Source: Eutreptiella sp. 'Long Island Sound 2002' (lineage: Eukaryota; Euglenozoa; Euglenophyceae; Eutreptiales; Eutreptiaceae). Taken from it: a stretch of 64,000 nt of DNA. The translations under genes and the position numbers were made by a program. The stretch lies in the NCBI GenBank assembly GCA_964036045.1, contig OZ038381.1, positions 150,926,352 through 150,990,351 of the forward strand, given 5' to 3'. The notes below the pieces were generated by a model, which saw only the letters and a list, made by a program, of their open reading frames with translations, made no database searches and was not told the origin of the DNA. This document shows positions 1,246-27,088 of the stretch, piece after piece; position 1 is the stretch's first letter, and every line of letters starts with the position of its first letter.

Positions 1246-1253
1246 GGGGTCCC
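1246..1253. repeat. Left copy of 8-bp target-site duplication
   Basis: GGGGTCCC lies directly outside the left terminal repeat and is repeated in direct orientation at 27081-27088. The 8-mer is nearly palindromic. Read as an inverted repeat the two flanks would differ at two positions, while as a direct repeat they match exactly, which supports a duplication and not an extension of the terminal repeat. Confidence 0.82.
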
Positions 1254-1267
1254 CAGCTATGGGTATA
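1254..1267 (+). repeat. Left terminal inverted repeat of giant hAT element
   Basis: CAGCTATGGGTATA, matched perfectly by the reverse complement at 27067-27080. It begins CAG, as many hAT ends do. Inside it come three copies of AAGTCTG in tandem (about 1268-1290). Confidence 0.82.
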
Positions 1268-1800
1268 AAGTCTGAAGTCTGAAGTCTGATTTGGCATGTC
1301 GTGTTGCGGACCCACATTAGAGCACATCCAAGTAAAAGTCTGATACAAGTGCGCCCCCCCCCCCCCCACACACACAGGAACATGAGTTCAAGAAAATGGT
1401 TATACCAGTGCATACCCCCCCCCCCAAGACACATAGCAACTCCACAGGAAAATGAGGATAAAAGTGCAATACCCCACCCCCCACAAACACACAGGCACTT
1501 CACCTCGGGAAAATGGTGCGTTAGGGAAAATAGGTTGGAATGGAAAATGTGGACAAGGGAACACTAGAAAAAGTCTCATACAAGCCCACCCCCCCCAAAA
1601 CACACAACCATGCAGTTCAAGAAAATGATGGGTTGGGTTGGGGAAAAAAGGGGGTTTGAAAATCCGGAAAAGGCAATCTTGGGAACAATGTGGCACAAGT
1701 ACCCACCCCCCCCCCCCCCGCCCAAAAAAAAACCACATACCTCTTGAAAAATGGGGCGTTGGGGAAAATGTGGAAAAAGGGAAAACCAAGGGAAATGGGA
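1268..1800. repeat. Left subterminal repeats of giant hAT element
   Basis: Tandem (AAGTCTG)x3, then about six degenerate units of 50-100 bp. Each unit combines a TAAAAGTGC or ATACAAGTGC-like start, a C run of 8-15, an ACACACAGG or ACACATAG-like stretch, a TTCA box and AAGAAAATGG. The same units occur in inverted orientation at 26,715-26,990 near the right end. Such subterminal arrays are typical binding regions for hAT transposases. The minus-strand USP-hAT reading frame runs into this block without a stop as far as 1400. Confidence 0.7.
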
Positions 1801-4800
1801 AAACCGTACTGATGCTTGCTAATGTATGAATGGACCTGCAGAGAAGGAGAACATGGGGATTGGCACAGCAGGCATGCAAAAGCACAATACCACTGCAACC
1901 CCAACACTGCCATTCATCAATGAGTCCGTCCATGTCATCCACCGGCACTTGGGAACATGGTTGTGAGCTGCTGGGAGGTGCAGCAGAACGGGTAACACGA
2001 TCCGTTGGGGGGGGCCAGTCAGAGTCCATCTGGGCTAGCAAAGGCAACACCTGTTGCATAGCAAGTTCTCGGGCTTCTCCCCAGGTCTTGCTATTTGGCA
2101 CCTTCACACCCATGCTTGCCAAGCAATCACAGATGCGAGCGCGTGTCCAGTCACGCAATGTGCCTGACTTTGCAGCACATACCAACTTGGCCTGTGCACG
2201 GGCCAAGGCACGCTTTGGGTCGGACTTCCGTGGTGCCACTGCCTCCTCTTCACTGTTATTTTCAGCAGCCTTAGCTGCATCATCCACAACCTGCACCACT
2301 GCCTCACCACACGGTCTTGGATCCTTGACGAAGCACGTATGGCAAACCAGACATGTGTTGCACCAGATGCGCACAGACTGCCTGCACACTGCACAGTCCA
2401 TGCCCCTTCGGAAAGTGAAGAAGTCATGGTTGCCACCATGCTGAGCAGGACTACCATCTGGTTCGACCAAAGTGCCCTCAGTGTGCTCAGACGGGGCTTG
2501 TCGGTCAGCGCGTCTGCGTGTTGCGCCTTGACAAGCCAGTGGCACTTCCGACCCCCCAAAAGATGGCAAAATGTCACCATCGTCTGCCACTGCAGCCTCC
2601 CCTTCCAGGCACTGCAACATGGCCGCTTCCACTGATGTACGTGGATCAATGCGATGCGAAACCCTATGCCGGGGACGCACATCGAAGCGTGCATTGGCTG
2701 CCAGCTTGCTGGCTACCTCAACACCTTGCCCCTTCACCCACTGCCGCAAAGGTGGCAGATTACAATGCAAAGCCATGCACATGCTAAGGACATGTGTGTC
2801 CTCCATATCATGCATACTGTTGGTGAACCTCCCACGCAATGAAATGGCACGCTCAACAGCAGCCTCAGCAGGGCAATATGTGCGCAGCAATGCCAAAACA
2901 CGCCAAACATTCACCCATCGGACATGCTTCCGCTCCGGCGTCAAGGCCTCCCACATCCGGGACATGGGGGTCTTGGCGAAGGTGCGAACGACATGCTCCT
3001 TGAAGGATTCCCACTCTTCCAATGCACGAGCAGCATTAACATGCGCAGCTGCCATTTCAGCATGGTGTGTGCCCATGAACTGCTTCAGCAGATCCACTCC
3101 AAATGTGGCTCGATCAGCCGCTGGTAGAGCGAGCCAACGGCCGTGGTCAAGCAACACAGCACACTCAAGAACACCCCGGGGGTCAATGGTCCCCTGTCCC
3201 TCCCTGATGCCAGCAAGCAGTGTGTCTGTGACTGCCCGTGCCTCTGTGGCTGGAAAAGGGGGGCTGGTTGTGCACCTCTGGCCATCGGTATCAAACCGGA
3301 CCAATTCAACGCCATGCCATGCACCTGTCACAGTTTGCTCTTTGAATTGAGTCCACCCTGGCCCCTCCTCCCTCGCCACCTTTTCCACCCGTGCCTGTAA
3401 CATTTCGGTTGCCTTGGTCAAGTGGGCACCTGTTGGTGCATGCAACTGTGCAACGTTGTTGAAGCTGCGCGTACCGTGTAGTATGTCCCCATATACCACT
3501 GCCCATGACAGCAAACCTGCATCATGGCAATCCTCCCACACATCCTCCTCCTTGGTGGTGAGGTGCGTTTTGGAATCCAAATGCCTCGCCACCCATGGCA
3601 CATTGGCCAAGAACACCTCGGACCACCGGATACGGTGACTAGCAGGGATCAAATGCAACCCGCTGCGTGTATCTGGTCTGGTGTTCTCTTGGACACACCT
3701 CTCGAGGTCCTTCCACTGGCGCGCACCGTTGTACAATGCACGTTGGCGACCCACAGCTGCCAGGTAGTCACCATGCACTTGGCCGGCAGCCTCCAAGGCA
3801 AGGCCTAGCTTGCGCCGGACCACATGGCATGGCTCACCCAAGGGGGTTAGCAAGGACAGCCACTTCACAAGCATGGCAAACACATTGTGCTCCATTGCCG
3901 ACACATCAACAGCTTGCCTTGCAGTGGCACCACGCACATCAAGGTTAGAGGCACCATCCACCGCAAAAGCCACAACCTTCTGAGCCCACCAGGCACGATC
4001 AGGCATCCAGGACAGCAGCACTGCCTCCACCTGTGCCGTCACCTCTTGTGCCTCCCCTGAAGCCACATCCACCACACCAAGGAACACCTCACACATTCCC
4101 TCCGGCCCAGTGCCTGGAAAGAGGAGCAGGATGGCATACTCATTGATGCGATGCCGTTGCCGGTCAGATCCATCCAACAACAAGGCAATGAACAATGCCC
4201 TTTGCAAGGTCTCTGACACACCATCTTGCATGGCGCCATGCATTGCGACCATGGCCTTCTCAACTATCCATCGCCGAGAGGCATGATGGCCCGGTTCGGA
4301 GGTCAACGCACAATGCAGAAGAATGCGTTCACTGATTGCACGGATGGATGTGCACATGCGGAGGCCAATGTACACCTCCACCAAGCGTGACAAAATGGCT
4401 GCCACCGCATCGCTCATAGGTACACCGAGGTCCATGCCCTCACCCCTAATGAACACAGTGCTCCTCTCTGCCACATTGACTGCACATGCAGATGCACTGG
4501 GGCACAGTGCCCGAAAACGTTCTGCACAATGCACCCGGAAACTCTCCTCGGCGGCCAAGTGGTGGCGGCTAGAATTATCAATTTTCTTGCGGCTGCTGGT
4601 CGTGCCACGTGACACACCAAGGTGACCCTCCAGGACATCTTTACGCCATCCCTTTGGTGTAGCGATCATCATACGCATGCCCATGCCATATGTTCCATTC
4701 ACCAAGGCTGTAGTAGCCTTCGGTGGCCGCTTCACCCCAAGACAATCCGTTTCAACAGCCCATGAACAACATATGCACATTACACCCCCTTGAACAGTGA

Positions 4801-6472
4801 ACTGCAACTGCCAATGCTCATCCACAAACGCTTGCAGTGTCTTTGGCCCTGCTGTCTGTTGCTTGGGGGCTGCCCCCATCATCACAGAAAAAGCATTGCT
4901 CCCCGTTGCTGCCAGTGCAGCAGATCGGGCTCTATCCTGTTCTATGGACTCGGAAACAGACCGGTGCGACATGCCCTGACCTGCATGCCTCTCATCCCAC
5001 TCCTTCTCATGACGTGCCCGGAGATGAGCCTGGTGGGCTTGCACACGGACCTGCAGATGCTGTTTCACCCGTATCCTTTGCTTTTGTACAAGCTTTGCCA
5101 CAGCTTCAATAAACTCGGTGGTGGGCTGCACATCCCCCACATGTGTGGTATATCCGGGGTCACCCGTTGGTAGCGCCATAGCTGGCAACTGGGTGTTACT
5201 TGGCACGCTCGGGGCATGCCTGTTGACAGTTGGTGTTGCAAACTCTGAGGGGGAGGGTTGTGCGTCCCCAATGTGGTTGGTAGACTCAGGGTCACCTGTT
5301 GCCAGCGCCATGGCTTGCAACAGGGTGTTACTTGGCATGCTCCGGACATGCCTGTCGACAGTTGTTGCTGCAGACTGAGAGGGGCCATCACGTACACCAC
5401 GATTGCTTTGTGAACCGCCCTGTGACAGACCCACCATCTCCGTGGGAGTACGCTCATACAATAGGAATGTCACCTTTCGTGAAGTGGCTGGGGGCCTTCC
5501 CTTGGTCACTGACGCATCATCACACAACCACCACACATCGCGAACTAAAATGTGAGCAATAAAGTGCCCTTGCTCCCTAGTTGGTCCAACATGTAGCACC
5601 ATGGCCCGCAGGGACCAATGGTACCCATTGATATCCACAAACTCATGATCCACCGTCAAGCTATGAAGCTGTTGATTGTGGACATGGAGTGGAGCCCACT
5701 TGTTGAACACTAGTGACGATAGTACAATGGCCTCCTGGAGATCCCCCCCACAGCCACATGGGGGGGCGTTTGAAGGGCGGCCCAACGAACGGCCCCTCAT
5801 TCCCTCCCTCATTCGCACCCGCACGCTCTGGCCCTGGTTAGTAACATGCAACACTGGGGCGGGCATTCCCAACTCACCTCCAGCCTGGTGGACTTTCACG
5901 TCACACACTGGGCACCGCTGCCACCATTGCTCATGAGACAAGCAGTTAGATAGAGAACGAACACCAGCACGAACCAGTTTCGGTACCATGTGCTTCCAAC
6001 ACTCAGCCATCTCGGACTGCTGCATCCACTCAAACTTGGGAGCCCTCCTGACACATTGACACCGACCACTACACTGGCACACAGTAACAGTTGGCTGTCC
6101 CTCATCCGCCAACAGGCGTGCAACGGCACGTGGACGGTACACAGCACCTGTCATACCTGCCACAATGTCACCCCAACGTGTAGCCCACACCGCAACATCA
6201 TCTGGGCACTCATCATGGAAGGACTCCTGTCCCCCAGAGGCTAGCAGGAGGCATTGCAACGTTGTACCAAGCCAACACCAACTGTGACTTGGGGGGTTCG
6301 CCATGCCACATGGCCGTTGCCATGCTCCACCTTGCGGACCGCCACTAACCTGCAGGCAGGCGGAGAGCATGTTGCTGCAAGAACTTGCGGTGCAAAGGAG
6401 GCAAACTCTGCCATTCTCCACGGCCGTAAAGCACCACCAATCGCCTATCCCCTTTCCATGGGCAAGTAGCAT
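1400..6472 (-). CDS. USP-like deubiquitinase domain fused to hAT transposase
   Basis: 1690-codon ORF with ATG at 6470-6472. Residues about 60-343 look like a ubiquitin-specific protease. There is a Cys box around C66 (SWCWLGTTLQC), Cys pairs at about 132-140 and 187-190 (CQCSGRCQC, CPVC) that could form the zinc finger, and a His box YHWSLRAMVLH...GHFIAH (H303) followed by CDDASV (D318/D319) and FLLYER. Residues about 545-1245 look like an hAT transposase of the ZNF862/ZMYM-like type: LLLDGSD (D767), AFAVDGASN (D839), a degenerate HxxxRKL segment (883-889), and a C-terminal dimerisation motif PAEAAVERAISLRGRF (1201-1216) then NSM. A C4 cluster (CAVC...CNTC.VCHTC) is at 1360-1380. After about residue 1520 the frame reads through low-complexity subterminal repeat DNA to a TAA, so the true C-terminus is uncertain. 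The same frame is open upstream to 6697 across a TAG at 6494-6496. The catalytic assignments come from motif matching by eye. Confidence 0.78.
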   Translation of the reverse strand: MLLAHGKGIGDWWCFTAVENGRVCLLCTASSCSNMLSACLQVSGGPQGGAWQRPCGMANPPSHSWCWLGTTLQCLLLASGGQESFHDECPDDVAVWATRWGDIVAGMTGAVYRPRAVARLLADEGQPTVTVCQCSGRCQCVRRAPKFEWMQQSEMAECWKHMVPKLVRAGVRSLSNCLSHEQWWQRCPVCDVKVHQAGGELGMPAPVLHVTNQGQSVRVRMREGMRGRSLGRPSNAPPCGCGGDLQEAIVLSSLVFNKWAPLHVHNQQLHSLTVDHEFVDINGYHWSLRAMVLHVGPTREQGHFIAHILVRDVWWLCDDASVTKGRPPATSRKVTFLLYERTPTEMVGLSQGGSQSNRGVRDGPSQSAATTVDRHVRSMPSNTLLQAMALATGDPESTNHIGDAQPSPSEFATPTVNRHAPSVPSNTQLPAMALPTGDPGYTTHVGDVQPTTEFIEAVAKLVQKQRIRVKQHLQVRVQAHQAHLRARHEKEWDERHAGQGMSHRSVSESIEQDRARSAALAATGSNAFSVMMGAAPKQQTAGPKTLQAFVDEHWQLQFTVQGGVMCICCSWAVETDCLGVKRPPKATTALVNGTYGMGMRMMIATPKGWRKDVLEGHLGVSRGTTSSRKKIDNSSRHHLAAEESFRVHCAERFRALCPSASACAVNVAERSTVFIRGEGMDLGVPMSDAVAAILSRLVEVYIGLRMCTSIRAISERILLHCALTSEPGHHASRRWIVEKAMVAMHGAMQDGVSETLQRALFIALLLDGSDRQRHRINEYAILLLFPGTGPEGMCEVFLGVVDVASGEAQEVTAQVEAVLLSWMPDRAWWAQKVVAFAVDGASNLDVRGATARQAVDVSAMEHNVFAMLVKWLSLLTPLGEPCHVVRRKLGLALEAAGQVHGDYLAAVGRQRALYNGARQWKDLERCVQENTRPDTRSGLHLIPASHRIRWSEVFLANVPWVARHLDSKTHLTTKEEDVWEDCHDAGLLSWAVVYGDILHGTRSFNNVAQLHAPTGAHLTKATEMLQARVEKVAREEGPGWTQFKEQTVTGAWHGVELVRFDTDGQRCTTSPPFPATEARAVTDTLLAGIREGQGTIDPRGVLECAVLLDHGRWLALPAADRATFGVDLLKQFMGTHHAEMAAAHVNAARALEEWESFKEHVVRTFAKTPMSRMWEALTPERKHVRWVNVWRVLALLRTYCPAEAAVERAISLRGRFTNSMHDMEDTHVLSMCMALHCNLPPLRQWVKGQGVEVASKLAANARFDVRPRHRVSHRIDPRTSVEAAMLQCLEGEAAVADDGDILPSFGGSEVPLACQGATRRRADRQAPSEHTEGTLVEPDGSPAQHGGNHDFFTFRRGMDCAVCRQSVRIWCNTCLVCHTCFVKDPRPCGEAVVQVVDDAAKAAENNSEEEAVAPRKSDPKRALARAQAKLVCAAKSGTLRDWTRARICDCLASMGVKVPNSKTWGEARELAMQQVLPLLAQMDSDWPPPTDRVTRSAAPPSSSQPCSQVPVDDMDGLIDEWQCWGCSGIVLLHACCANPHVLLLCRSIHTLASISTVFPFPLVFPFSTFSPTPHFSRGMWFFFGRGGGGWVLVPHCSQDCLFRIFKPPFFPNPTHHFLELHGCVFWGGWACMRLFLVFPCPHFPFQPIFPNAPFSRGEVPVCLWGVGYCTFILIFLWSCYVSWGGGYALV

Positions 6473-9338
6473 GCCATGCCCCAGTGCGGACCACTACAGG
6501 TTGCCTATCGACACGGTACCTATGCCCCGGACGGCTAATGCCATCTGGGCATTGCCTTCTCCCTGGTTTGCCATGCGGACCACTGCCAACGCCTCCCTCT
6601 TCCACCCAGATCTCACCACCCACGTGCCGCCCCGTGGAGAACACTGCTGACCATGGGGTACTATCAAAACGATGTTGATGGGGAGCTGTCGTCTCATTGC
6701 ATGACAGCTGTATTGTAGTCCATGTGAACCACTTTGGTACCAGCTTCCTTGCTATGCGGTTCACCATCATCACAAGGGGGCCATGCTCCTGTGTCCCTTG
6801 CACAAGCCGCGACCGGCGACAATCCCCTTTCGCTGTATGTCCTTTGCTCCCACCGACACCCAACTGCAACCTTCGCAAGGAGAACTGCCCTAACGTCTCT
6901 CTAGTGTACAGCAGTGTCCCCATTATGCCATGCAAGACACACAAAGGTGCTACCTGCAACGAGCGGTCGTAGCTGGCGCCCCGGTAATGTCCTCCCGGCC
7001 GGAGCCCATCACGTTCGGCCTCACCAACGACGATCACGCATGCTTGTTCACAAGCTTCCTCCATCTCCTGGATTGTATGGTACACTTTGGCTTCTCCCAT
7101 ACCCGGACTCCAAGCTGCAGCAGACGTCACAGCAGTGTCCGGGCCAAACCTTGAATCCATTATTTTGTGTGTGTTTGTACGCAACAACACAACCTTCCCA
7201 TCGATGTGGTGGGCGAGATGTCGAAAATGGTCGGGCCTTCCCCCCAAGGGCTTCCCTTCCCAATTATTCTCTTCCAGGGCCCTACAAACACTTAGAGCAC
7301 TCTCCTTAACCTCTATCCCACACCGTTCCTTGTACATTGTGGTTGCCTGGACTCGGAGGTCCACTCCAGTTAAGGGGGTCTCACTGCGGAGCGCATGGAG
7401 GCTGAGGGCAGTTGCATAAAAAAAACATGCACCGGCGACATACTCATCACGTGCCAACCGTAACTTCAGTTGCCGGATGGTAGGCAGCTCCCTACCGGCA
7501 GGAGCCTTGATTTTATCCACCTCAACCTTCTGGTTAGGATTGTCACAGCCAATTGCTGCGGCCCCATCCGCCCCTAGCCGCACACGCTTTGCAGCAGGCA
7601 TGGGGTTGGGATCCCTGGGCATTGCTTTCTTGCCTGAGGGGGGGCTGTTACATGGCTCCGAGCCATCTGTGCTGGACTGACTAGGTGCCACGACAGTGCA
7701 TGCCGTCCCCATACTGCTATCCATATTTGGGGATGACATTTCACTATCTTGCCCACTCAATGAAACTTGTGGTGGGCGCAGTGCTAGGGGCACAGGGGAT
7801 CCCTGATCAGAGAGTGACTCAGCACCGCAACCGGGGTGTGGCGTGAGGCATTCTTCTGCAGCACCTGGCCCTATGTTCTCCATTACCTCTCCGCCCTGGT
7901 TCTCATCGTCAGCATGCACACCACCTGCAACTTCAGGTGCACCTGGGGGTCCACATCGCAGCGCACAGGCTGGGAGGTTGGACGCACTTGGATCACCTCT
8001 GCGGGGATCCTGGTCAGCAGTCATAGGAGTTGAGGCGGGGGGGGGGGGGGGGGTGGGGGGGGGTTGCTGTGCTTCACCAAGGGTGCCAGTTGTGCCTATG
8101 GCCTCCTTTGTGCCCCCTTCCAGGTGCATAGCACATGCATCGTTGGGTGTACCGTTGTCATCAGGGACACCGACAGATGCATCTTGGGATCGGAGTCGCA
8201 GCGCACAGGCTGGGACGTCGGACTGGCTTGGATCACCTCTGGGGGGATCCTGGTGAGGTGTCGGGGGTCCTGGGGGGGGGGGGGGTTGCACCCCAGCCTC
8301 TGCCATGGCTTCCAATAGAAGCACCATGGCCTCCTCCCCTGCATCATCTGTCCATGCATTATTCACCACACGGACACCAGCATGGAGGTATCCCAAGTGG
8401 TTGCGGGGTACCTCGGGGCTGAAAGGGGTGCACCTCAGTATCACATCGCTACTCTCTTGCACGGGAATCCGCATGGACTCTGCAAAGTGGCGTCCCACCG
8501 TATAGGCAGCCACCAGGCTCTCCTCTGACAGGGGCTTCCGCCGTTGCTCCCCCAAGCCTTGCATCGCAATGCGGACACACCGGGCAATGCCATGGCACGT
8601 TGTCATCAGTGCTTGGTCGAACTGTTGCTGTCTCCTCAGCTTCACCGTCATAGGTGCTGGATTGGGTGGGACGCTGGGTTGAGGTCCGGGACTGCAAGTG
8701 GACGTTGAGCTTTCGGGCAACAGGGAGCTCCGTCGACTACCCCCAGATCCAGGGGTCCCCTGGCTAGTGGGACCTGTGCCACCGGCTGGCGCTGCCACTC
8801 TGTGTCGACCACCCCCGGATCCTGGGGTCCCCTGTGCTTTCGATCCCTCCCCGTTGGCCGGCAACAGTGAGTTCCGGCGGCTCGCAGGTGCCACCAAATC
8901 ACTTGTGAATGGCCGTGCTGCACTTGCTGCCTGTGGCCAAAAGTACTGCATTGTGCCCAAGGGTACTCTCCGTACTTTCTCCACATACATCCTCTCCACA
9001 GTGGGTGTGGGGTACTTGGTCTCCCCTCTCCAGAAAGGCCATGAGTCCACAAGTGGCAAGGCATACACAATGTCATTCCATGCCTCTAGCCAAGCAACTT
9101 TGCTAACGCTCATGGGGTGTCCAGCAATGGCCCCTCGTCGACTCCCCACTTTCCCACGGTCTTGCTCATACTTTTTTATCCGGTCCCAGAGGTCTGAGGC
9201 TACCTTATGGTACTCCACAACAGCACCTCCATCCTCCCGCGTGCACTTTGGACTGCCCTCTTGGCTGTACATCAGGCGGCACAGTGCTGCAAGTCCAAGG
9301 GTATGGACGACATCAGGGGAACATGTCGCCATGTGCAT
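6345..9338 (-). CDS. Large protein with OTU-like cysteine protease domain
   Basis: The open frame is 6345-9344 with the first ATG at 9336-9338, about 997 residues. The N-terminal third is globular (WDRIKKYEQDRGK, AWNDIVYALPLVDSWPFWRGE). The middle is Pro/Ser/Gly-rich with tandem-like segments (TPHQDPPRGDPSQSD, SNLPACALR). Near residue 640 the sequence YVAGACFFYATALSLH resembles the OTU catalytic block (normally DGNCLFRA). Near residue 786 GGHYRGASYD resembles the OTU catalytic His block. OTU proteases cleave ubiquitin or ubiquitin-like chains. The usual Asp in front of the Cys block is not obvious. Coding character seems to continue upstream of 9344 across a TGA at 9384-9386 (segment APPEREAIYYRKLAMHM), so the 5' end may be broken or lie in another exon. 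The 3' end overlaps the USP-hAT ORF by 128 nt in a different frame, and both may belong to one gene with a lesion near 6680. Confidence 0.55.
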   Translation of the reverse strand: MHMATCSPDVVHTLGLAALCRLMYSQEGSPKCTREDGGAVVEYHKVASDLWDRIKKYEQDRGKVGSRRGAIAGHPMSVSKVAWLEAWNDIVYALPLVDSWPFWRGETKYPTPTVERMYVEKVRRVPLGTMQYFWPQAASAARPFTSDLVAPASRRNSLLPANGEGSKAQGTPGSGGGRHRVAAPAGGTGPTSQGTPGSGGSRRSSLLPESSTSTCSPGPQPSVPPNPAPMTVKLRRQQQFDQALMTTCHGIARCVRIAMQGLGEQRRKPLSEESLVAAYTVGRHFAESMRIPVQESSDVILRCTPFSPEVPRNHLGYLHAGVRVVNNAWTDDAGEEAMVLLLEAMAEAGVQPPPPPGPPTPHQDPPRGDPSQSDVPACALRLRSQDASVGVPDDNGTPNDACAMHLEGGTKEAIGTTGTLGEAQQPPPTPPPPPASTPMTADQDPRRGDPSASNLPACALRCGPPGAPEVAGGVHADDENQGGEVMENIGPGAAEECLTPHPGCGAESLSDQGSPVPLALRPPQVSLSGQDSEMSSPNMDSSMGTACTVVAPSQSSTDGSEPCNSPPSGKKAMPRDPNPMPAAKRVRLGADGAAAIGCDNPNQKVEVDKIKAPAGRELPTIRQLKLRLARDEYVAGACFFYATALSLHALRSETPLTGVDLRVQATTMYKERCGIEVKESALSVCRALEENNWEGKPLGGRPDHFRHLAHHIDGKVVLLRTNTHKIMDSRFGPDTAVTSAAAWSPGMGEAKVYHTIQEMEEACEQACVIVVGEAERDGLRPGGHYRGASYDRSLQVAPLCVLHGIMGTLLYTRETLGQFSLRRLQLGVGGSKGHTAKGDCRRSRLVQGTQEHGPLVMMVNRIARKLVPKWFTWTTIQLSCNETTAPHQHRFDSTPWSAVFSTGRHVGGEIWVEEGGVGSGPHGKPGRRQCPDGISRPGHRYRVDRQPVVVRTGAWHATCPWKGDRRLVVLYGRGEWQSLPPLHRKFLQQHALRLPAG

Positions 9339-9386
9339 TGCCAACTTCCTGTAATAGATGGCCTCCCGTTCTGGTGGGGCATGTCA

Positions 9387-9683
9387 CCCTGCCTCGCCGA
9401 GGGCTACACGGAATCCCATTTTCATCTGGGCAGCTTCCATGGTGTCCCATGGGGGCCATTCAGGATGCTGGGCCATTTGTAGGAGGCTGCCTCACAACGG
9501 TTAAAGGTTGTGGCCTCTTGCGTGCTCCACAAGGTGCAGTTCGATGGGCACTTGTTGGTGACCACAACTCAGGAGGACAATCTGGTCCCGGACCCCGATA
9601 CTCGAAGTGGTAGGCTGCTTCCTCCTTGGGTTCCTGCGCGGGCCCACTTGATGCCACCGCGTGGTATGAACGTAGACCCTGGT
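9387..9683. other. Possible degraded 5' coding extension of the OTU-like gene
   Basis: On the minus strand, short open segments with protein-like composition (for example WDTMEAAQMKMGFRVALGEAG) lead into the OTU-like ORF but are split by TGA codons and a frame change. I cannot define a complete gene here. Confidence 0.3.
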
Positions 9684-10098
9684 CGAGGCGCAACGGCCGG
9701 GGACCAAGGGCAGACTTCTGCGCCTCAAGGGCTAGCAGTAGCTGGGTAGGGGTGAGGGATGGACAATGACCGAGGTCGAGGCGCGGCGGCCAAGGACCAA
9801 GGACGAAGTCCTGCGGCTCGGCGGCCTGCAGTGGTTGTGGTGGGGTATGGACGAGGACCGAGGTCGAGGCGCGGCGGCCAAGGACCAATGGCCAACTCCT
9901 GCGGCTCGGTGGCCTGCAGTGTGTGGGTGGGGGGACGGCTAATGACCGTGGTCGCGGCGCTGTGGCCAGGGACCAAGGGCCAACTTCTGTGGGTCAAGGG
10001 CCAGCAGTAGGTGGGCTGGGGGATGCGGGATGCCCCTCGTTGAGGCGCTGCGGCCAGAGACCGAGGGGCAACTCCTGCAGCTCAGAGGCTAGCACAGG
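9684..10098. repeat. 88-bp GC-rich minisatellite, left block
   Basis: Four to five copies of a unit containing CGAGGCGC(G/T)GCGGCC, AGGGACCAAGG, CTCCTGCGGCTC and GGCCTGCAGT. Unit starts at 9684, 9777, 9865, 9953 and 10041 give spacings of 93, 88, 88 and 88. The same unit recurs at 21511-21766, on the far side of the large satellite and the helicase. Confidence 0.8.
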
Positions 10099-16100: not shown

Positions 16101-17660
16101 GGAGGGGCATAAATAATTCACGGAGGCATCAAATAATTCACCGAGGGGCATAAATAATTCATGGAGGCATCAAAGAATTCACGGAGGGGCATAAATAATT
16201 CACGGAGGGGCCAAACAATTCACGGAGGGGCATAAATAATTCACGGAGGCATCAAATAATTCACGGAGGGGCATAAATAATTCACGGAGGCATCAAATAA
16301 TTCACGGAGGGGCATAAATAATTCACGGAGGCATCAAATAATTCACGGAGGGGCATAAACAATTCGCGGAGGCATCAAATAATTCAGGGAGGGGCATAAA
16401 TAATTCACGGAGGGGTGAAATAAATCACGGAGGGGCATAAATAATTCACGGAGGGGTTAAATAATTCAAGGAGGGGCATAAATCATTCACGGAGGCATCA
16501 AATAATTAACGGAGGGGCATAAATAATTCACGGAGGCATCAAATAATTCACGGAGGGGCATAAATAATTCACGGAGGGGCCAAATAATTCACGGAGGGGC
16601 ATAAATAATTCACGGAGGGGTGAAATAATTCACGGAGGGGCAGAAATAATTCACGGAGGCATCAAATAATTCACGGAGGGGCATAAATGATTCACGGGGG
16701 GGTGAAATATTTCACGGAGGGGCATAAATAATTCACGGAGGCATCAAATAATTCACGGAGGGGCATAAATAATTAACGGAGGGGCCAAATAATTCATGGA
16801 CGGGCATAAATAATTCACAGAGGCATCAAATAATTCACGGAGGGGCATAAATAATTCACGGAGGGGTGAAATAATTCACGGAGGGGCATAAATACTTCAC
16901 GGAGGGGTGAAATAATTCACGGAGGGGCATAAATAATTCACGGAGGGGTGAAATAATTCACGGAGGAGCATAAATAATTCCCGGAGGCATCAAATAATTC
17001 ACGGAGGGGCATAAATAATTCACGGAGGGGTGAAATAATTCACGGAGGGGCATAAATAATTCACGGAGGGGCATAAATAATTAACGGAGGGGCCAAATAA
17101 TTCATGGACGGGCATAAATAATTCACAGAGGCATCAAATAATTCACGTAGGGGCATATATAATTCACGGAGGGGTGAAATAATTCACGGAGGGGCATAAA
17201 TAATTCACGGAGGGGTGAAATAATTCACGGAGGGGCATAAATAATTCACGGAGGGGTGAAATAATTCACGGAGGAGCATAAATAATTCACGGAGGCATCA
17301 AATAATTCACGGAGGGGCATAAATAATTCACGGAGGGGTGAAATAATTCACGGAGGGGCATAAATAATTCACGGAGGCATCAAATAATTCACGGAGGGGC
17401 ATAAATAATTCACGGAGGCATCAAATAATTCACGGAGGGGCATAAATAATTCACGGAGGGGCATAAATAATTCACGGAGGGGTGAAATAATTCGGGGAGG
17501 GGCATAAATAATTCACGGAGGGGCCAAATAATTCACGTAGGGGCATAAATAATTCACGGAGGGGCCAAATAATTCACGGAGGGGCATAAATGATGCAAGG
17601 AGGGGCCAAATAATTCACGGAGGGGCATAAATAATTCACGGAGAGGTGAAATAATTCGCC
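10188..17660. repeat. 7.5-kb satellite of alternating 20/21-bp units
   Basis: About 360 tandem units share the head AATTCACGGA. The tail alternates. Very often every second unit ends GGGGCATAAAT (21-bp unit), and the unit between ends in one of three forms: GGCATCAAAT, GGGGTGAAAT or GGGGCCAAAT (20-bp units). The basic period is therefore about 41 bp with a variable half. Rare variants mark longer-range duplication: the combination of ATTCCCGG and a shortened GGCATAAAAATT recurs at about 11,243, 11,775 and 13,249. No gene is visible inside; reading frames in it are repeat artefacts. It lies between the OTU-like ORF and the helicase of the giant element. Confidence 0.95.
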
Positions 17661-18081: not shown

Positions 18082-21000
18082 TCATGATTTCAGCGGTCCA
18101 AACCGAAGACCAATTGATCCTGTAGGCTTCTCTGCCGGTGCGACCATGCCAAGGACATACCGCTTCACACGATCCGGCAATGGCTTCCAACCACAGTGCT
18201 GGGCATGTCCACGGTGAACAGCATGTGGGGCACACACATCGCGCCCCCCCTCACAATCTCTCACCCCATGGAGCAAAGACGCCACATACACCCCCAAGGG
18301 TGTGCAGAAGTCATCGCCCAGGAAGCCTACCGTGTCCACGTGCTGGTAGGCATCCTGCCACACAGGCAGAGAAACAGTGCGGTAGCCAGATGACCGGGGG
18401 GGGTTGGGATAGGTTTGGGCGTCGTGGAAGGGCTTGGTCAGCAGAAACTGCACCGGCCTTTGCTCGTGGTCCGCCAAATCCTGTGTGTGGCACACTCTCT
18501 CCAACCCGTCAATGTGATGCCATCCTGCCCAGTCAGTGTCCTCATCCTTGATGAGGATGTAGGGCAATGCCCACTCCGTGAAATCGGGGAGGGTAACCCC
18601 GAGGTGCTTTGGTTCCACTTCCCCCGTTTCCAGGCGCAGCCGCATCTCCAATGTCCCAACCCTCTTGTTGGCCATGATCCGCTCCCAGTCCAACAATTGG
18701 TCACTCTAGGGGGGGGAGAATCCCCAAGGGTCAAGGGCTTTTGCATGCTTCCTCCACAGTTTCCAAAGCCACTGCCCCACCACCCCCAACCCCCCCCCCT
18801 TGAACTTGTAAATGACGCCCACCTCTTTTTGGGCAAAGGTGGGCTGTTGGTACATAACCCCTGGGAGCCGCACCTTCTGTACGTCGTCTGGGGAAGGGTA
18901 ATTCTGCAGTTCGGCAGCCATCACCCTCAGCCCACTCAACCAAACCGCAGTGACGGGGGAGTCCTCCCAACCGAGAAAGGCCCCGAAAAGATGCAGCTCG
19001 GATTGGGCCCTGCTGGTTAGTGTGTTTGCCCGCACCATGTCCCTCATGATCCCCGGCTCCGAGGAGACCAGGGAGGCAAGGACACCGGAGCCTGCAGACC
19101 CTGGTACCGGTCCAGGGTGGCGATCATCCTCACACACTCATATGCCTGGTCCCCATGCAGCCGGCGCCCTGCCTCCCACACACAGTGCTGCAACCATAGC
19201 ATCTGCGCATAGTGTGTGGTGACGATTGCAACTGACTTGGGGGGGTACACATTTGCACTCTGTGCATGCTCCAAAAAGTGCAGCACCAGCCAGGCCTCCT
19301 CCCTGCTGGTGTTCCCCTGATTGCACATGGCCTCGTCCATGACAAGGCACTCCCATGCTCTGCCAACCTCCCTTCTCAGTAACCCCACCCGGGCGTCCGA
19401 CATCCCGTACCGTGTCAGCTCCGATCTCCACTGAGGATCGTCTGTGCTGACTATGCGGATGCGTTGCCCTCCCAACACCGGGGGGGGGGGGTAATGCTGG
19501 GGCCGAGGCGGGATACCAGCCCAAGGATCCCCCCGTGAACAGCCCACGCACCACCATTGCCAAAGGCACGTCCATGCGGAACTGCTGGGTTAGGACACAC
19601 GCAGTACACCTTGTACGGTACAGGCCAAACTGCTACACACTACTTGTGGCGAAGCGCTGCGAGTCACCATACTGCATCCCTGGTCCCTGGTCAAGGTGCA
19701 CATTGAGGTTAGCAAAATGCCCGGACTGCGCCCATGCAATATGTTGAGCCGTCACCTTGCCCCCTTTCCCCTTTTTATCCCCTTCCGCTTTCGCTGCAGC
19801 TGCAAGAAGAGTGATGGCACTGTATGGGCGCAGTTGACCGGCATCCCCACAAAACATGCACTGTGCCCCAAAAGCTGCCAAGTCCAGACCCACTGGGATG
19901 CTATGCCTCGAGGACTCATCCACGAAGCGGAATGCGAACCGAGTTTGTGGGTCACCCGTTAGCAACAACTTCCGCCGTGTGGCGACCACACCAGCTGTTG
20001 CAAAGAGAACCTGGCAGCTGTTGAGGGCACACTGCAATATGCCATTGCAGTCCGGATGATTGGCCAACGTCTCTTGGACTGTTGTTGGATTGTACGGCTC
20101 CAAACCTGGGGGGGTCCGGCCCCTTGCAGCTCTGAGCCGCATCCAGGGCACGGGGTGGTCCTTCAGGACCGCCTCTGAGAAGACAAGATCCTGTTCTGCC
20201 GATTGGAACACCCGCAGCATCAGGTTGTCGACCTGTGCGTTTGTTGAGGCGGTGACCAAGATGCATGCCCGAGGGGGGTTGTCGGTTGGTGCCCCCCCCC
20301 CCCCCTTTCCTGCCAGTGTGTATCGAATCTGGCGCCTTGGGATTCGGGATGCATGGGTCGAAGTACCCCTGCTGCCACATGACTGCCTTGATGCAGGCCA
20401 CCAGGGTCTCCGACTTCCCCGTGGTGCCCCCCCTTGTCATGGAGGAGACAACAGCACCCTCATCCAGACATTGCCGGACAGCCAAGGCTTGGGAGGGGTT
20501 CAGGTTATGATGCTCCACAAGGTGACGCAGGATCTGCTGGTCCTCGGGAGGGAGGCTGTTAGACAGCAGTGGTTCTTGCCGGGTGGCATTGAGCAACGCG
20601 TTCCAGGCCTCCGCCGTCCGTATCTCCTCACGCAACGACCGGATCGCTGCCTCGTCAGGCAAGACACAGCACCACCACCTGTGGATGTGCAAAATGGGCG
20701 GTTTGCTCGCACAAACAATGGTCACCATGTCACCAGAGGTGCCATCACCTTGCACCTTGCCAATCTAGTCCGGGTTTGGTGCCACGTCAAGGGTGTCGAC
20801 ATCTGGCCGCTTCATGTCCCATCCATGGATGAGATCCCCATCCGTCAGCTCGTAGTTGCCCCAAACTTCGAGCTCAGGTGACCATTCTATTACCTTGACC
20901 ATGTTGCCATGCTTGTCCTCCTTCAGCCCCTCAACCCTCTCAAACCACAGCTCCCTCTGGGCACCTTGCTCCCATGCCCACCTCCGGGCAGCGGCAATCT

Positions 21001-21499
21001 CATGCACGGTGTGCACCAAGGATGCCTTGTGGACATACACATCGCGATCAGCCCAACGGGTGGTGAATCCATCCGTTGGGTTCGTGTCGATGTCATAGTC
21101 CACGTGGGCAAGGTTTTCCGCAAAGGTCCGGGCCTTGCCTTTGGCTTGCGGCGGGCCTTGGCCTGTGCCTTGTGGTCGGGCCTGACCTTTGCCTCGTGGG
21201 GGGCCATGGCCTTTGCCTTGCGGATGGGCTTGGCCTTTGCCTGTGCCTTGCTGGGGGCCTTTGCCTTGCGCAGGGCCATGCCCTTTGCCTTGCTGTGTGC
21301 CTTTGCCTTGTGCAGGGCCATGCCCTTTGCCTTCGTGAGGGCCATGGCCTTTGCCTTGCTGAGGGCCTTTGCCTTGGGCAAGGCCATACCCTTTGCCATG
21401 CTGTGGGCCTTTGCCTTGCTGTGGGCCTTTGCCTTTGCCGTGCTGAGGGCTTTTGCCTTGCCAATGGCCATGGGGCTGTGTTTGCCCTCCGTTTGGCAT
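18082..21499 (-). pseudogene. Upf1-like superfamily 1 helicase, broken by frameshifts and in-frame TAGs
   Basis: All the core SF1 motifs can be read in order on the minus strand. They are a Q motif LNPSQALAV, a Walker A-like RGGTTGKSE (about 20411-20434; first Gly replaced by Arg), motif Ia VTASTNAQVDNL (20224-20259), motif II VDESS (about 19915), motif III GDAGQLRP (about 19840), QQFRM (about 19580), motif IV VAIVTTHYAQM (about 19210), motif V TLDRYQG (about 19115) and motif VI NTLTSRAQSELHLFG (about 19000). The N-terminus (21499 to about 21140) is a Gly-Lys-rich repeat built from (Q/H)GKG units. Three frame changes are needed: at the G run 20291-20304, at the G run 19481-19491, and near 19083-19090, where one base seems missing. 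Three in-frame TAG codons also interrupt it (20765-20767, 19633-19635, 18706-18708). Upf1-like helicases unwind RNA or DNA 5'-to-3'. Its role in a transposon is unknown. Two frameshifts lie in homopolymers and may be sequencing errors. Confidence 0.75.
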
Positions 21500-21510
21500 A
21501 TTGTCTGGGT

Positions 21511-21766
21511 CGGGGCGCTGTGGCCGGGGACCGAGGGCGAACTCTTGCGGCTCGGCGGCCCGCAGTGGGTGGGTACGGAGAGGAACAACGACTCTGGTCG
21601 GGGCGCTGTGGCCGGGGACCGAGGGCGAACTCCTGCGGCTCAGCGGCCTGCAGTGGGTGGGTACGGAGGGGAACGACGACCCTCGTCGGGGCGCTGTGGC
21701 CGGGGACCGAGGGCGAACTCCTGCGGCTCAGCGGCCCGCAGTGGGTGAGAGATGGACGCGTGGGTG
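21511..21766. repeat. 88-bp GC-rich minisatellite, right block
   Basis: About three copies starting at 21511, 21599 and 21687, exactly 88 bp apart, with the cores CGGGGCGCTGTGGCCGGGGA and CTCCTGCGGCTC. It is clearly the same family, in the same orientation, as the block at 9684-10098. Here the units are more uniform, so this block is probably younger. It lies immediately upstream of the helicase start codon and could be in its promoter or 5' leader. Confidence 0.8.
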
Positions 21767-21771: not shown

Positions 21772-23118
21772 GCAGGCCCAACTCAGATGTCTGGGCCAGA
21801 GACGCAACGGTCTAGACCCAAGACGCACTTCCTCGCCTCAAGGGGGAGGTTGGAAATAAAAGAGTGCCTGGATTGAGACGCACGGCGCTGGAGCAATGAA
21901 CCGTACTGCGGGATGGGGCACGGCCGCTTCGGGGCGGGCAGGCCCAACTCAGATGTCTGGGTCAGAGACGCGACGGTCTAGACCCAAGACGCACTTCCTC
22001 GCCTCAAGGGGGAGGTTGGAAATAAAAGAGTGCCCTATGTGTAAGAGACGCCCGGTGCACACTTGCCGAAGAGTTGGAAATTGGAACGTTTCGCCCAAGT
22101 CTGTGGACGTTGCGGGGGGGCCTGCGCAGGCAGCAATGACCCAAACTGCGGCCTCTCCGGCGGGGGGGCGGACTGAGACGCACGGCGCTGGGGCAATGAA
22201 CCGTACTGCGGGGTGGGGCACGGCCGCTTCGGGGCCGGAGCCAATGGGAGGTGTGAGGAGCGGCGGTGCCTGCTATACTGGGTCAGTGTCACCTGATCAC
22301 TTGCTGGAGGGGGCAGTGGCCGACGAGGCACAGGTTGTGGGGCCGGCTTGGGGATACGGGGGGGTTTTGGGGTAGCACACAGGATTTCAAGAACCACTGC
22401 TGCGTGCTCCTCGTCCGTGCAAAGGAAATGCGAACGGCTAATTTGCATGCCCTCCTGCCACACCCGCAAGGGGTTTTTCTTGGGCTGCTGAACCGCTAAC
22501 CGGTACATCGCACGGCGGTTCAGCACCCCGTCCACGAAATACTGAACCCCACCCCCGTGATTCTCCCGGATGAGCTGCAATGTTTTGTCACCGTAGGGCC
22601 CGTGAACAGTGGGTTTGGGGGGGTGTGGGGGGGTCCTTGGGTACGTACTTGGGGGGTTGTGGGGGGGATGGCGGTGGAACGGCAGTGCACATCAGGGCCT
22701 CCTCCACGGCTTCCAGGGCTACCAGGTATGGGGTTGAGGTAACGTGGGGTCTCGGTGGAGGATTTACTGGCGTTGGAGAGGTTGCTGGTGAAGGGGGAGA
22801 GGGGGGCGGTGTTGGCAATGGAGGCTGGGGCGAGGCCAGTTTGCCGAGACACTTCTCAGCGTCAGAGTCCCACGGTGGCGAGGGGGGTTGGTCTCCAAAC
22901 CGCAATAGCTCCGGCAGATCCCCCCAACCACATTCCGGAAACGAAGGGCTGGAGGGGACGGAAGAGGCCACGCTAAGGGGGCTAGACGACATGGCAAACT
23001 GCGGCGCGCAGCGGGTGGTGGGGCAGGCCCAACTCCAATGTCTGAGTCAGAGACGCAGTGGTCTAGACCCAAGACAGACTTCCTCGCCTCAAGGGGGAGG
23101 TAGGTAACAAAAGAGTGC
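21772..23118. repeat. Three dispersed copies of a ~97-bp repeat
   Basis: Copies lie at about 21772-21868, 21937-22035 and 23022-23118. Each contains GGCAGGCCCAACTC, CAGAGACGC, GGTCTAGACCCAAGAC, TTCCTCGCCTCAAGGGGGAG and AAAAGAGTGCC. GGTCTAGACC is a 10-bp palindrome inside it. A second shared segment (GAGACGCACGGCGCTGG through GGGGCACGGCCGCTTCGGGG) occurs at about 21874-21934 and 22170-22236. The copies surround the proline-rich ORF. Confidence 0.8.
22035..22992 (-). pseudogene. Proline-rich ORF in two frames, unknown function
   Basis: The first segment (22992-22588, ATG start MSSSPLSVAS) is Pro/Ser-rich and ends in TGA. The second (from about 22610 to 22035) is in another frame, has no ATG, and begins with a protein-like stretch, PYGDKTLQLIRENHGGG, followed by QYFVDGVLNRRAMYRLAV. 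It then becomes Pro/Arg-rich (PPRIPKPAPQPVPRRPLPPP). The two segments would join by one frame change near 22590. I recognise no domain. It sits just upstream of the helicase on the same strand inside the giant element, so it may be a broken third accessory gene. Confidence 0.35.
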
Positions 23119-23231
23119 CCTATGTGTAGAAGAGGCTCAGTGCACACGCGTCTCCTATGCAATACACGCATTTCCCTTTGTCTCAGTAAGAGGCACAACA
23201 TGCAACAATTACATATAAACCCCCCCCGTAC

Positions 23232-23304
23232 AAGAACACGCAGTCAAAATAAGAACACGCACGCATGTTCTTATTATGTAGTCAAAAATAAGAACACGCA
23301 GCCG
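23232..23304. repeat. AAGAACACGC short-repeat cluster
   Basis: Three copies of AAGAACACGC, plus GCATGTTCTTAT, which matches the reverse complement of the AAGAAC core, in about 75 bp. A second cluster of three copies plus a reverse-complement arm lies at 23,742-23,801. Both clusters could fold as hairpins. No gene is nearby. Confidence 0.7.
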
Positions 23305-23311
23305 GCCCCGG

Positions 23312-23741: not shown

Positions 23742-23801
23742 GAAATAAGAACACGCAAAAAATAAGAACACGCAAATCAATAAGAACACGCGCATGTTCT
23801 T
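23742..23801. repeat. Second AAGAACACGC cluster with inverted copy
   Basis: Three direct copies of AAGAACACGC spaced 14-17 bp apart, followed by GCGCATGTTCTTG, which gives a hairpin arm. A G run follows at 23,807-23,818. Confidence 0.7.
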
Positions 23802-23819
23802 GTACGGGGGGGGGGGGTT

Positions 23820-26700
23820 TACCAGGAGATCAGGACCAAGTGAAATCAAAACGAATTACCTCCAAGTTGTCAACCACCAACACACACATAGCAGAGCCCC
23901 TACTCAGGTTTTTTTTTTTATGACAGTGGGACTTCTGCATCACCCAACTCAAATGCAGTCCGCCACATTGGACAGTACTGCGCCCAGCAAGGCACAATGA
24001 AAAAGAAACCTTGGGGCCGGAATCTGCGCGATGACCCAGACAAGCTCTCAAGGTAGGGGCTGGCATATGTTGTGCAGCAGTAGGGTCCAGTAGGGCTGAG
24101 TGCAGTGGTTTTCGGCAGGTTTGGCAAACATGCAGATCCGTTGGAGTATGGGGAGATGCCTGGCTCCATCCAACAAAATAGGGCCTAAAGCAGTCGGTCC
24201 CCAGACGGATTGTTCCCACGTGGCTGACACATCATCGAAGGGGATGCATACATACAAAGCACAACCTGGGTACACATGTGCATGCAGATACCTACAAATC
24301 GGGACCATCAAATAAAATAAAAACAAATCAAAACACCAAGCATCAGCAAAGGAGACCATCAAATAAAAAAAAACCAAACAAAACACAAATATCAGCAAAG
24401 CAAACCCCTGTCTCAGTATTAGCAAAGTAACCGAAATAGCCAAAGCAGAGCCCCTTCTCATTACATTGTTTTTGGTGGAAGCGTCAGCCTCCCGGCGCCA
24501 TATGTTGGGATGTTTCAAACGTGTCTATGGGGCTCCTTAGGGATGCTGCTGCTGCGAAGCTGGATGCCTTCCCGGCGGAACGTAGAGTTGGATGGTACTG
24601 ATTTTCCCAGGCTTAGGCAAATGCTCCTTCACGCCCCACTTGCTCAACAGCTCTGCCAACCCAAACAGGGCCTAAGAAAAGAGGTCCCTGCGGGAGTCTG
24701 TGCCTCTGCTATGGGGGAAGCAGAGACCGGATGTCAGCGGAGCATCCCCCTGCGTTTGCGCCCTTGGTAACAAAAAATCATCGGAGAGGATGCATAACAC
24801 CTGTAACACACACTTGGCAACACAACAACAGAGAAGAGCCCCTTCTCAGCTATACCCCTGCATGTGCACAAAGGACCTTGCATTGGATTCATGGTTTTTT
24901 GGGGAGCGGTGTACCACAGCGTTGTACCACAGTGTTGCATGCTAAGCGTGTCAACTGTTTGCTTGGGGACCCACATCAGGTGCGGTATTGGCTGTACTAG
25001 GATGAGGATTTGGGCAGTGGCACTGGCAGTGGCATTTTTAAAAATCCGTGGAACACAAAGCAGGGCCTAAGAAAAAGGTCCCTGCAAATGTCTGCGCATG
25101 GCTCCCTGCTGCAGCCCAGACCCAAGTTCCACGGAGCAGGCCCGTGCACACACAATGTCGCCATCATCGAAGGGGCTGAAAATGGTTGGAAACTGCACAA
25201 CCCACATCTACTAACAACAAATCGGGACGGGCTCGCAATACATGGATGCAAATACCAGGAAAATCGGAACCCCTTCTCAGTTGTTGTCAGCGCATTCTTC
25301 ATCGAAGGGGTCTGTGGTCGTAGGCGCCAGGGCCTAGACCACACACAGCTAAAACACCTCAAGGATGTTCTGCATAATGAGCACATTCTGATCGGATGCA
25401 GAAACAAACATGTCAAAACCCCTTCTCAGCTGTTGGCAGCATCATCATTGAAGGGGTATATGGTCGTAGGCGCCAAGGCCTAGACCACACACAACCTGAA
25501 CACCTCCAGGGTGTTCTACATAATCACATTGAAAGAACAGCAAAATGTCTCTGTGAGTGTGCTAGCCTGAGGTCCTGGAGCAAGCTGCAGAAATGGTGTC
25601 CTAATTATACCCAAGTCTGCACCCTTGCTGAACCCGGCGGATGTCTTACCGGTGCCACGGGGTACGCCCCGGGTCTCTCCGCCCCTAGGTGCCCAAATTC
25701 TGTGCTGGCAACAAAAATCCTTGGGGGAATACCCCGCGATAACGCCAAGGTATTGGTTTTTCCTACCTGCCTGCCTACTACAGGGGAGGGGTGGCCAAAA
25801 GCTATGAGGCATGAAAACGCCTGTTTGCTATGTGGCCAAAACCTAGGCTACCATTGCCACTGCCCATCGAAAACCCTGTTGAAATTCCAGGAAACTGGCA
25901 GGACAGTGACACACACACTTTAGGTCCTACACACCCTACTGCGGACCCAGCCTTCGAAGGATGACGTCATCCAGGCCTTCCACTCCTACACGCACACGCT
26001 ACTTGGTGCGGCTGTCAACGAGGTCGTAGGCCCTGCTGGCCTTCCTGTGAGAGAAGCAAGCAACAAACAGCGCTACTAAGCTGTTGTGGCCTGACAGGGA
26101 CGCCATTACGCGTACCCCTGCCAGGGCTTGGAGGGAAGGAGTGCACTGCGGCGCGGCGTGAGTACGTGTCGTTCATGGCGGAGTCGTTCAGCATCTTCTT
26201 CGGTTCCCCATTTCTTTGGTGTGATCTGCGCCCTTTTTGCTGAGCAAAAAATTGTGCTGTCGAAGACAGCAAAGTGCACCAATCACCCTGACCTACACCA
26301 CCTGAGAGGTTCACATGCAGGCACTGTTTTGGGCTGAGGAACCTAACCACCCTCGCCATATTATACGGGTCCTCGAGTGGAAAATAATACGCTGTCCCAA
26401 AACAGGTCCTTCCAAGAAAGCAAGCTTAAGGAACTCCGCCCGTTCTTTATAGAACGTAGGGCGGAGCCCCTGGGTAACCTAAACAAGGGTTTACCGAGCG
26501 CACCACGTGTGGCCTACCCTTTAATGTGTCATGTGCATGCACAGGAGACACAGCCGCAATGACTCTACCAGGGGGTGGCCCCTCTTGGGCTTACTCACCT
26601 TACCTACCACAATGTCAATCTCAAGGATGATGACTCTACCAGGGGGTGGCCCCTCCTGGGCTTACTCACCTTACCTACCGCTGCAAGCGAAAGGAGAGCA
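23820..26700. other. No recognisable gene; short duplications inside the giant element
   Basis: No domain or convincing ORF on either strand. A ~150-bp segment beginning CCCCTTCTCAG is duplicated in tandem at about 25,270 and 25,420. It contains GGTCGTAGGCGCCA, GGCCTAGACCACACACA and a CTCAAGGATGTTCT-like end. Further CCCCTTCTCA remnants occur at 24,451 and 24,839. A ~65-bp duplication (GACTCTACCAGGGGGTGGCCC) is at 26,560-26,690. This 2.9-kb stretch may be a decayed gene or the element's right-hand noncoding region. Confidence 0.5.
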
Positions 26701-26714
26701 AACAACATGACATG

Positions 26715-27051
26715 CACACATGCAGGCATATTTTCCCCAACCCACCATTTTCCTGAAGTGAAGTTCCCGTGTCTCTGTGGGGGTGGGGGGGGGGGGGTAC
26801 TGCCCTTTTATCCCCATTTTCTTGAAGTGAAGTTCCTATGTGTCTGGTGGGGGGCTGCACTTTTATGATTCGAAACAGGGGGGGGGGGTACTATGCTTTC
26901 CCCCATGTTGAACGTTTTCCGAGGTTCCATATTTTCCCATTTTCCACTTGTCCACTAGTCTGATATTGGGGGGGGGGGGTCTATCATGGGGGGCTTGGGT
27001 GTTGGGGGTTGGGAGGGATGGTCCATAAAAGTCTGAAGTCTGAAGTCTGAT
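26715..27051. repeat. Right subterminal repeats of giant hAT element
   Basis: Units in inverted orientation to those at 1268-1800: CCATTTTCCTGAAGTGAAGTTCC, a GTGTCT box, a G run of 10-13, then TACTGCCCTTTTA, repeated with variation. (AAGTCTG)x3 recurs at about 27,029-27,050, but in the same plus-strand orientation as at the left end. Confidence 0.7.
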
Positions 27052-27066
27052 AGCCCATTGGGTTAC

Positions 27067-27080
27067 TATACCCATAGCTG
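27067..27080 (-). repeat. Right terminal inverted repeat of giant hAT element
   Basis: TATACCCATAGCTG, the exact reverse complement of 1254-1267. Confidence 0.82.
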
Positions 27081-27088
27081 GGGGTCCC
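27081..27088. repeat. Right copy of 8-bp target-site duplication
   Basis: GGGGTCCC, identical and in direct orientation to 1246-1253. Confidence 0.82.

Follow-up and report, generated by a model that had tools for sequence, protein, structure and literature searches.

Does a 25.8-kb stretch of a euglenid genome that carries several genes and a long satellite constitute a single transposon, and what moves it? The locus in question lies in Eutreptiella sp. 'Long Island Sound 2002' (assembly GCA_964036045.1, contig OZ038381.1, our contig C4), of which a stretch of 64,000 nucleotides was analysed (the window, to which all positions refer unless another contig is named). An earlier note on this DNA had read positions 1246-27088 as a giant hAT transposon. 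We conclude that the window copy, here called W, very probably belongs to a high-copy family of giant transposons with terminal inverted repeats (TIRs), moved by a hAT-like transposase that the element itself encodes.

Ends, Target Duplication and Empty Sites

W is a unit of 25,827 bp (1254-27080). Its ends are exact 14-bp reverse complements of each other, as the earlier note had claimed. The left TIR, CAGCTATGGGTATA (1254-1267, + strand), runs on into the left-type end AAGTCTGAAGTCTGAAGTC, and the right TIR (27067-27080, - strand) forms the right-type end; both were found by scanning for the TIR, and both types of end recur genome-wide. They are the only exact 14-bp TIR matches in the window. 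With up to 2 mismatches the scan gave three matches against 0.34 expected, the third at position 56675 with 2 mismatches. Identical copies of GGGGTCCC bound the unit on the left (1246-1253) and the right (27081-27088), neither with an assigned strand, which agrees with the perfect 8-bp target duplication described before.

The left subterminal region (1268-1800, + strand) holds three AAGTCTG units and one more, followed by C-rich stretches with inward-pointing AAAATGG. The right subterminal region (26700-27066, - strand) also has inward-pointing AAAATGG, along with three AAGTCTG units whose strand is that of the units at the left end. Within the outer 600 bp, AAAATGG points inward three times at the left end and three times at the right, and the copies of AAGTCTGA, four on the left and three on the right, are all on one strand. 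The mirrored arrangement proposed for the subterminal repeats thus holds for AAAATGG but not for AAGTCTGA.

An empty site with one GGGGTCCC had been predicted, and uninterrupted paralogs of this kind were found. A search with the two flanks of W fused across one GGGGTCCC returned 40 scored places; two of these are the flanks of W, and the other 38 cross the junction. The four paralogs that were fetched are all uninterrupted and carry one GGGGTCCC each (78-84% identity). For another copy, E6, all three fetched places carry one GGGGTCAA (92% identity; one of them is a neighbour in the same tandem array), with a gap of 3-6 bases in a G-run directly beside GGGGTCAA. Because the empty paralogs carry a single duplication, W and E6 were inserted precisely into repeats.

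Copies in the Genome

The genome searched comprises 2.28 Gb in 2205 contigs. At up to 1 mismatch the TIR 14-mer occurs at 2,013 sites (1044+969 on the two strands), compared with 189 (98+91) for the reversed pattern. Left-type ends (33 bp, up to 3 mismatches) number 745 (407+338) and right-type ends, under the same conditions, 694 (327+367), with none in either reversed control. Exact TIR matches were also seen in viral contigs (at least 120 stretches); these we take as the chance level for a 14-mer in so large a collection.

Pairing was studied on 100 exact TIR sites listed, all on contig C1. Among neighbouring sites within 60 kb, 29 pairs were convergent, 3 divergent and 7 on the same strand, and random placement gave a mean of 1.2 convergent neighbours and a maximum of 6 (2000 placements). 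Nine of the convergent pairs were read whole, one was taken from loci already fetched and 19 were read at the ends only; in two of 18 end-read pairs the end type was ambiguous by a simple rule and was assigned to left or right by eye. A left and a right end were present in 28/29 pairs, which together with W makes 29 elements. Their target duplications match at 8/8 positions in 25 elements and at 7/8 in four (one of these, E2, in a C-run), the chance probability of a match of at least 7/8 being 0.0004 per pair. The elements are 5.7-49.3 kb long with a median of 20.1 kb. Further copies with inverted ends 15-30 kb apart had been predicted, and 19 of the 29 left-plus-right pairs measure at least 15 kb. 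The giant element with genes and a satellite that the earlier note proposed is therefore supported as one member of a family.

We considered whether the locus is an assembly artefact or a segmental duplication flanked by repeats, which is extremely improbable. Such an origin fits the one convergent pair that is no element and that counts against our reading: at C1:109212231-109227158 two right ends stand inverted with reverse-complement 8-bp flanks, as in an inverted duplication. It would also fit L024 and L025, which have a common left end and a near-identical flank. Neither the 29 places with matching 8-bp duplications of differing sequence nor the empty sites of W and E6 are expected from it.

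The left ends fall into two subfamilies (L001, L006 and others) that have the TIR in common and differ in the inner sequence, GTCGTGTTGCGG or CTCGTGTCAAGG. The second subfamily accompanies the gene-poor copies read whole.

The Shared Interior and the Satellite

With tandem repeats masked, W is collinear with the copies E1 and E6 over the full length between the ends; the aligned blocks are ~92-97% identical, and indels are present. About 2 kb of W is absent from E1, and E7 is without ~4.5 kb of the transposase stretch. The sequence outside the satellite amounts to 18.4 kb in W, 16.4 kb in E1 and 18.3 kb in E6. In a second group, E2, E3, E4, E9, E10 and E11, the sequence outside the 41-bp array comes to 4-6 kb, and E4, E9, E10 and E11 match W near the ends only. 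Ends that occur at many sites without the interior had been named as grounds for abandoning the giant element. The data do not give these grounds, with one qualification: the interior is common to W, E1 and E6 from end to end, but gene-poor copies with the same TIR exist, and 42/100 listed exact TIR sites have no exact convergent partner within 60 kb.

The satellite, given before as 7.5 kb, is an array of 7,443 bp with a period of ~41 bp (10215-17657, + strand), each period consisting of two ~20.5-bp units, AAATAATTCACGGAGGGG. Each of the 12 copies read whole (W, E1-E11) contains such an array, in constant orientation and with lengths of 0.5-16.5 kb, and the commonest unit spacings in the 10 copies measured (W, E1-E9) are 20 bp, 21 bp or the two combined (41 bp). 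Probes of the largest copies hit satellite at 3/5 positions (49.3-kb copy), 3/5 (39.6-kb copy) and 4/4 (40.3-kb copy). A 35-base unit pattern, present in E2, E3, E4, E9, E10 and E11 and absent from W, E1 and E5-E8, has 15,116 exact matches in the genome (control 0). Confinement of the satellite to elements was examined for this variant on C1 up to 32.6 Mb, where the first 100 listed matches fall in five places: E9, E2, E3, E4 and one place 1.4 kb inside the left end at 942081.

An ordinary hAT element of a few kb could instead have been enlarged locally, through nested insertions and expansion of the satellite at every site, in which case the giant unit never moved as such. The varying arrays are what this would leave behind. 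The best array alignments between long copies reach 86-92% (short arrays up to 96%), compared with mostly 92-98% in the unique parts, and therefore the arrays turn over faster; E5 contains additional tandem arrays. Judged from these comparisons, the length of the array may have changed after insertion, which weighs against the full 25.8 kb of W as the unit that moved, 7.4 kb of it being satellite. The non-satellite interior argues the other way. Since it is collinear in W, E1 and E6 at different sites, about 16.4-18.4 kb moved together, and E6 sits cleanly in an empty-site repeat. Growth in place is thereby largely refuted and we regard it as highly unlikely.

The satellite units recur every 20.5 bp on average, which is two helical turns, and therefore face the same side of the helix. 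A quite unlikely but consequential idea is that the satellite is no passenger but contributes to the function of the transposon, as an iteron-like array to which a protein of the element binds and on which its Upf1-like helicase acts. If this were true, the satellite might serve, for example, replication, amplification or keeping the element open, and the DNA transposon would possess a replicon-like control region of its own.

A Protease and a Putative Transposase in One Frame

The open reading frame (ORF) next to the left end, ORF1 (1400-6493, - strand), is 1697 aa long from stop to stop. Its N-terminal part is a USP-type ubiquitin protease, and a putative hAT-like transposase follows without a change of frame. 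The N-terminus in W matches the UCH/USP family PF00443 with an E-value of 2.4e-5 and 24.5 bits, against a cut-off of 23.9, and the family was again above the cut-off in further ORFs scanned (26.2 and 27.3 bits). The match spans only the end with the His box, GHFIAHILVRDVWWLCDD (5516-5569, - strand). A putative Cys box, SHSWCWLGTTLQCL (6248-6289, - strand), was assigned by eye on what we take to be the box consensus. The N-terminal part of the relative P0013 gave 11 PDB matches, all of them USPs and all weak (E-value 0.16-2).

A search of a database of 5.8 billion proteins, with ~8,000 candidates scored in each round, returned four relatives of ORF1 and then, using their alignment, 13 (P0001-P0013), all from ENA and unnamed. 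The two largest clusters of homologs have 231 and 215 members. One relative, P0002, whose transposase is 67% identical, may be the partner of the second left-end subfamily.

Compared with W, the ratio of nonsynonymous to synonymous substitution rates (dN/dS) of ORF1 is 0.44 in E1, 0.54 in E6 and 0.76 in E7 (partial). Two results count against our reading. Frame-breaking indels were present in 6/6 comparisons of ORF1 and ORF2 with E1, E6 and E7, and stops in 5/6. The second frame, ORF2, appears little constrained, with dN/dS values against W of 0.55 (E1), 1.03 (E6) and 1.16 (E7).

Is the Transposase a hAT?

The earlier note had placed a hAT transposase ORF at the left end. A frame of 1697 aa does adjoin that end, but it has no Pfam hAT match and matches UCH instead. 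We nevertheless consider membership of the hAT superfamily probable from the sequence features that follow, and call the element hAT-like.

Hallmarks of hAT elements are 8-bp target duplications, an nTnnnnAn-like target, short TIRs, subterminal repeats and excision through hairpins by their own transposase; their TIRs habitually start with CAG, as does the TIR here. Within the 25 perfect duplications, T at position 2 and A at position 7 are enriched (23/50 half-sites, p 4e-4, tested after the sequences had been viewed), which fits the nTnnnnAn consensus. An alignment of profile hidden Markov models (HMMs) between the transposase and 11 hATs was full-length and collinear and scored 25.5, compared with at most 21.1 in 40 column shuffles, a control applied to this 11-hAT set only. 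The aligned landmarks were DGASNL with DGASNM, C+H with C+H, the W of the RW motif with TRW, LLD with LLD, and AVERAIS with ASERIVS. In W the proposed core landmarks span 2840-4180 on the - strand and comprise LLDGS, the first catalytic D proposed by eye (4166-4180), DGASNL (3941-3958), CH (3806-3829), the RW motif HRIRWS (3620-3637), VLLDHGR (3137-3157) and AVERAIS (2840-2860); all except LLDGS fall on hAT landmarks in the HMM-HMM alignment. The RW motif is named as typical of hAT in PMC8151067.

Several results point away from hAT. By its own measure the match to the 11 hATs is not significant, with a probability of 0.85% and a P of 0.065, and the proposed first D in LLDGS does not align to the hAT first D. 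An HMM of the same 11 hATs scored six proteins no better than shuffled sequences, and when the HMM-HMM comparison was made with six hATs from the present genome there was no signal (score 15.3, and 14.9 reversed). No Pfam hAT domain (PF05699, Dimer_Tnp_hAT) was detected in the window ORF, in four homologs or in fragments, although PF05699 matches do exist in this genome, at least 150 of them (150 of 1757 candidates scored). Pfam and PDB searches of the transposase part returned no credible transposase match, and a structure model of P0002 from a 4-sequence alignment was unusable (mean predicted local distance difference test score, pLDDT, of 30). Of the hAT identity claimed for the element, the duplication and the target motif thus stand and the landmarks align collinearly, but the Pfam match is absent and the profile tests are mixed.

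The same results could mean that the enzyme belongs not to hAT but to some other DDE superfamily, known or new, whose duplications are 8 bp long (KDZ/Zisupton-like, P-like or unnamed), which we judge unlikely while giving it a real chance. The missing Pfam match, the weak and mixed profile signal and the first catalytic D that was not placed are all compatible with this, and 8-bp duplications are not unique to hAT. It accounts less well for the collinear DGASN, C/H, RW, LLD and ER landmarks with a score above all 40 shuffles, for the nTnnnnAn-like target, and for the TIR beginning with CAG; moreover, the nine window ORFs scanned matched no Pfam domain of P elements or of KDZ.

Canonical hAT transposases from this genome and from relatives (P0016-P0018, P0022, P0023, P0025 and P0026) carry an N-terminal chromodomain (PF00385), which was also recognised by eye in L211 and L213.

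A hAT-like origin would give the following scheme. The DDE transposase, made in one frame with a USP-type deubiquitinase, would recognise the asymmetric left and right ends, excise the whole unit and reinsert it at an 8-bp target near gTGnnCAc. This supposes that ORF1 acts on these ends as their transposase and that the chemistry is cut-and-paste. In the gene-bearing copies W, E1 and E6 the satellite is combined with a core of ~16-18 kb that holds the putative transposase, ORF2, the Upf1-like helicase and further frames. Gene-poor copies, which keep the ends, the satellite and short unique parts, are presumably mobilised in trans. The protease probably shields the transposase or counters host ubiquitin signalling, and the helicase and satellite may have roles as well.

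Helicase, ORF2 and Other Frames

A region resembling SF1/Upf1-like helicases (AAA_11) lies at 18082-20764 on the - strand, its frames being interrupted in W. The AAA_11 match in W has an E-value of 5.1e-6 and 26.9 bits, just below the cut-off of 27. In E1 the helicase ORFs match AAA_11 (5.3e-14) and AAA_12 (3.4e-8) in two overlapping frames, and the PDB matches are named 5'-3' RNA helicase-like (best E-value 8.7e-5). We take TGKSET (20422), VDESSR (19923), GDAGQL (19848) and QFRM (19584) to be the helicase motifs in W. A low-complexity open frame of GKG repeats (20765-21727, - strand) has its counterpart in E1 within a 753-aa helicase ORF.

ORF2 (6345-9383, - strand) is an open frame of 1012 aa with OTU-like motifs seen by eye only; it gave no Pfam match and no credible PDB match. 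Proline-rich open frames (22035-23243, - strand) have partial counterparts in E1 and E6. At least three genes besides the transposase had been claimed. The helicase is well supported, but ORF2 is a long frame without a match and the rest are open frames only. An 88-bp minisatellite of ~4 units (9681-10083, no strand assigned) is also present in E1, E6 and E7.

Surroundings and Host Genome

Elsewhere in the window we noted several 47-bp tandem arrays (GCATTGCAGGAGTTCCACTGCCC..., 38817-43593), a LINE-like retrotransposon (48210-53455, - strand) and a large 72/216-bp satellite (60701-64000) that reaches the window end. The retrotransposon has endonuclease, reverse transcriptase and C-terminal RNase H frames recognised by eye, and its RNase H part matches bacterial ribonuclease H (tblastn, 7 plasmid records). 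Contig C2 starts with CCCTAA repeats. A 24-mer that we take to be the euglenid spliced leader (SL) has 5,415 matches in the genome at up to 1 mismatch (2655+2760; control 0), which points to a euglenid host; the excess over the SL RNA genes expected perhaps reflects retrocopied mRNAs.

Significance and Comparison With Known Systems

The 745 left ends, the clean duplications and the multi-gene cores suggest that natural transposition by hAT-like chemistry extends to units of ~16-18 kb or more. The family would help explain the repeats in a euglenid genome. It also provides a deubiquitinase-transposase fusion made by nature, and a system for testing how satellites arise and spread within transposons.

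Cut-and-paste transposons are described in PMC10175614 as mostly smaller than 10 kb and carrying little beyond the transposase, with Tol1 at 4.4 kb and Tol2 at 4.7 kb. With hATs such as Ac, Hermes and Tol1/Tol2 the present family has in common 8-bp duplications, an nTnnnnAn-like target, short TIRs, subterminal repeats and, as candidates, transposase landmarks including the RW motif (PMC8151067). It differs in its median size of 20.1 kb (n = 29), the USP in the transposase frame, the helicase gene, the satellite and a Pfam hAT domain that was undetected. No description of giant hAT elements was found among the titles and abstract starts listed from the open-licence literature, Repbase lying outside this coverage, and the word hAT is absent from the main text of a review of giant eukaryotic transposons (PMC6431247).

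Teratorn, Starships and Mavericks resemble the family in spanning tens of kb and carrying several genes. Marks of Mavericks/Polintons are a retroviral-like integrase, a protein-primed polymerase and a capsid. According to PMC10175614, the basis of Teratorn is a piggyBac-like transposon and that of Starships a tyrosine recombinase-like gene. Unlike these, the present element has no capsid, polymerase, tyrosine recombinase or retroviral-like integrase among the Pfam matches of the nine window ORFs scanned; nor do these include a Rep or Helitron domain.

Helitrons have no TIR and no target duplication, whereas TIRs, 8-bp duplications and a protease of the USP class are found here. PMC9741609 describes Helitrons as using RepHel without a classical transposase, and some as carrying VTD/OTU deubiquitinase domains together with a helicase; the combination of a transposon-encoded deubiquitinase with a helicase is a likeness to the present family (PMC9741609).

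Finally, tandem repeats inside a DNA transposon are also known from Tetris-like elements that feed satellite DNA, as described in PMC4079207. The present family differs from these in that the satellite is found in 12/12 copies read whole, at 0.5-16.5 kb.

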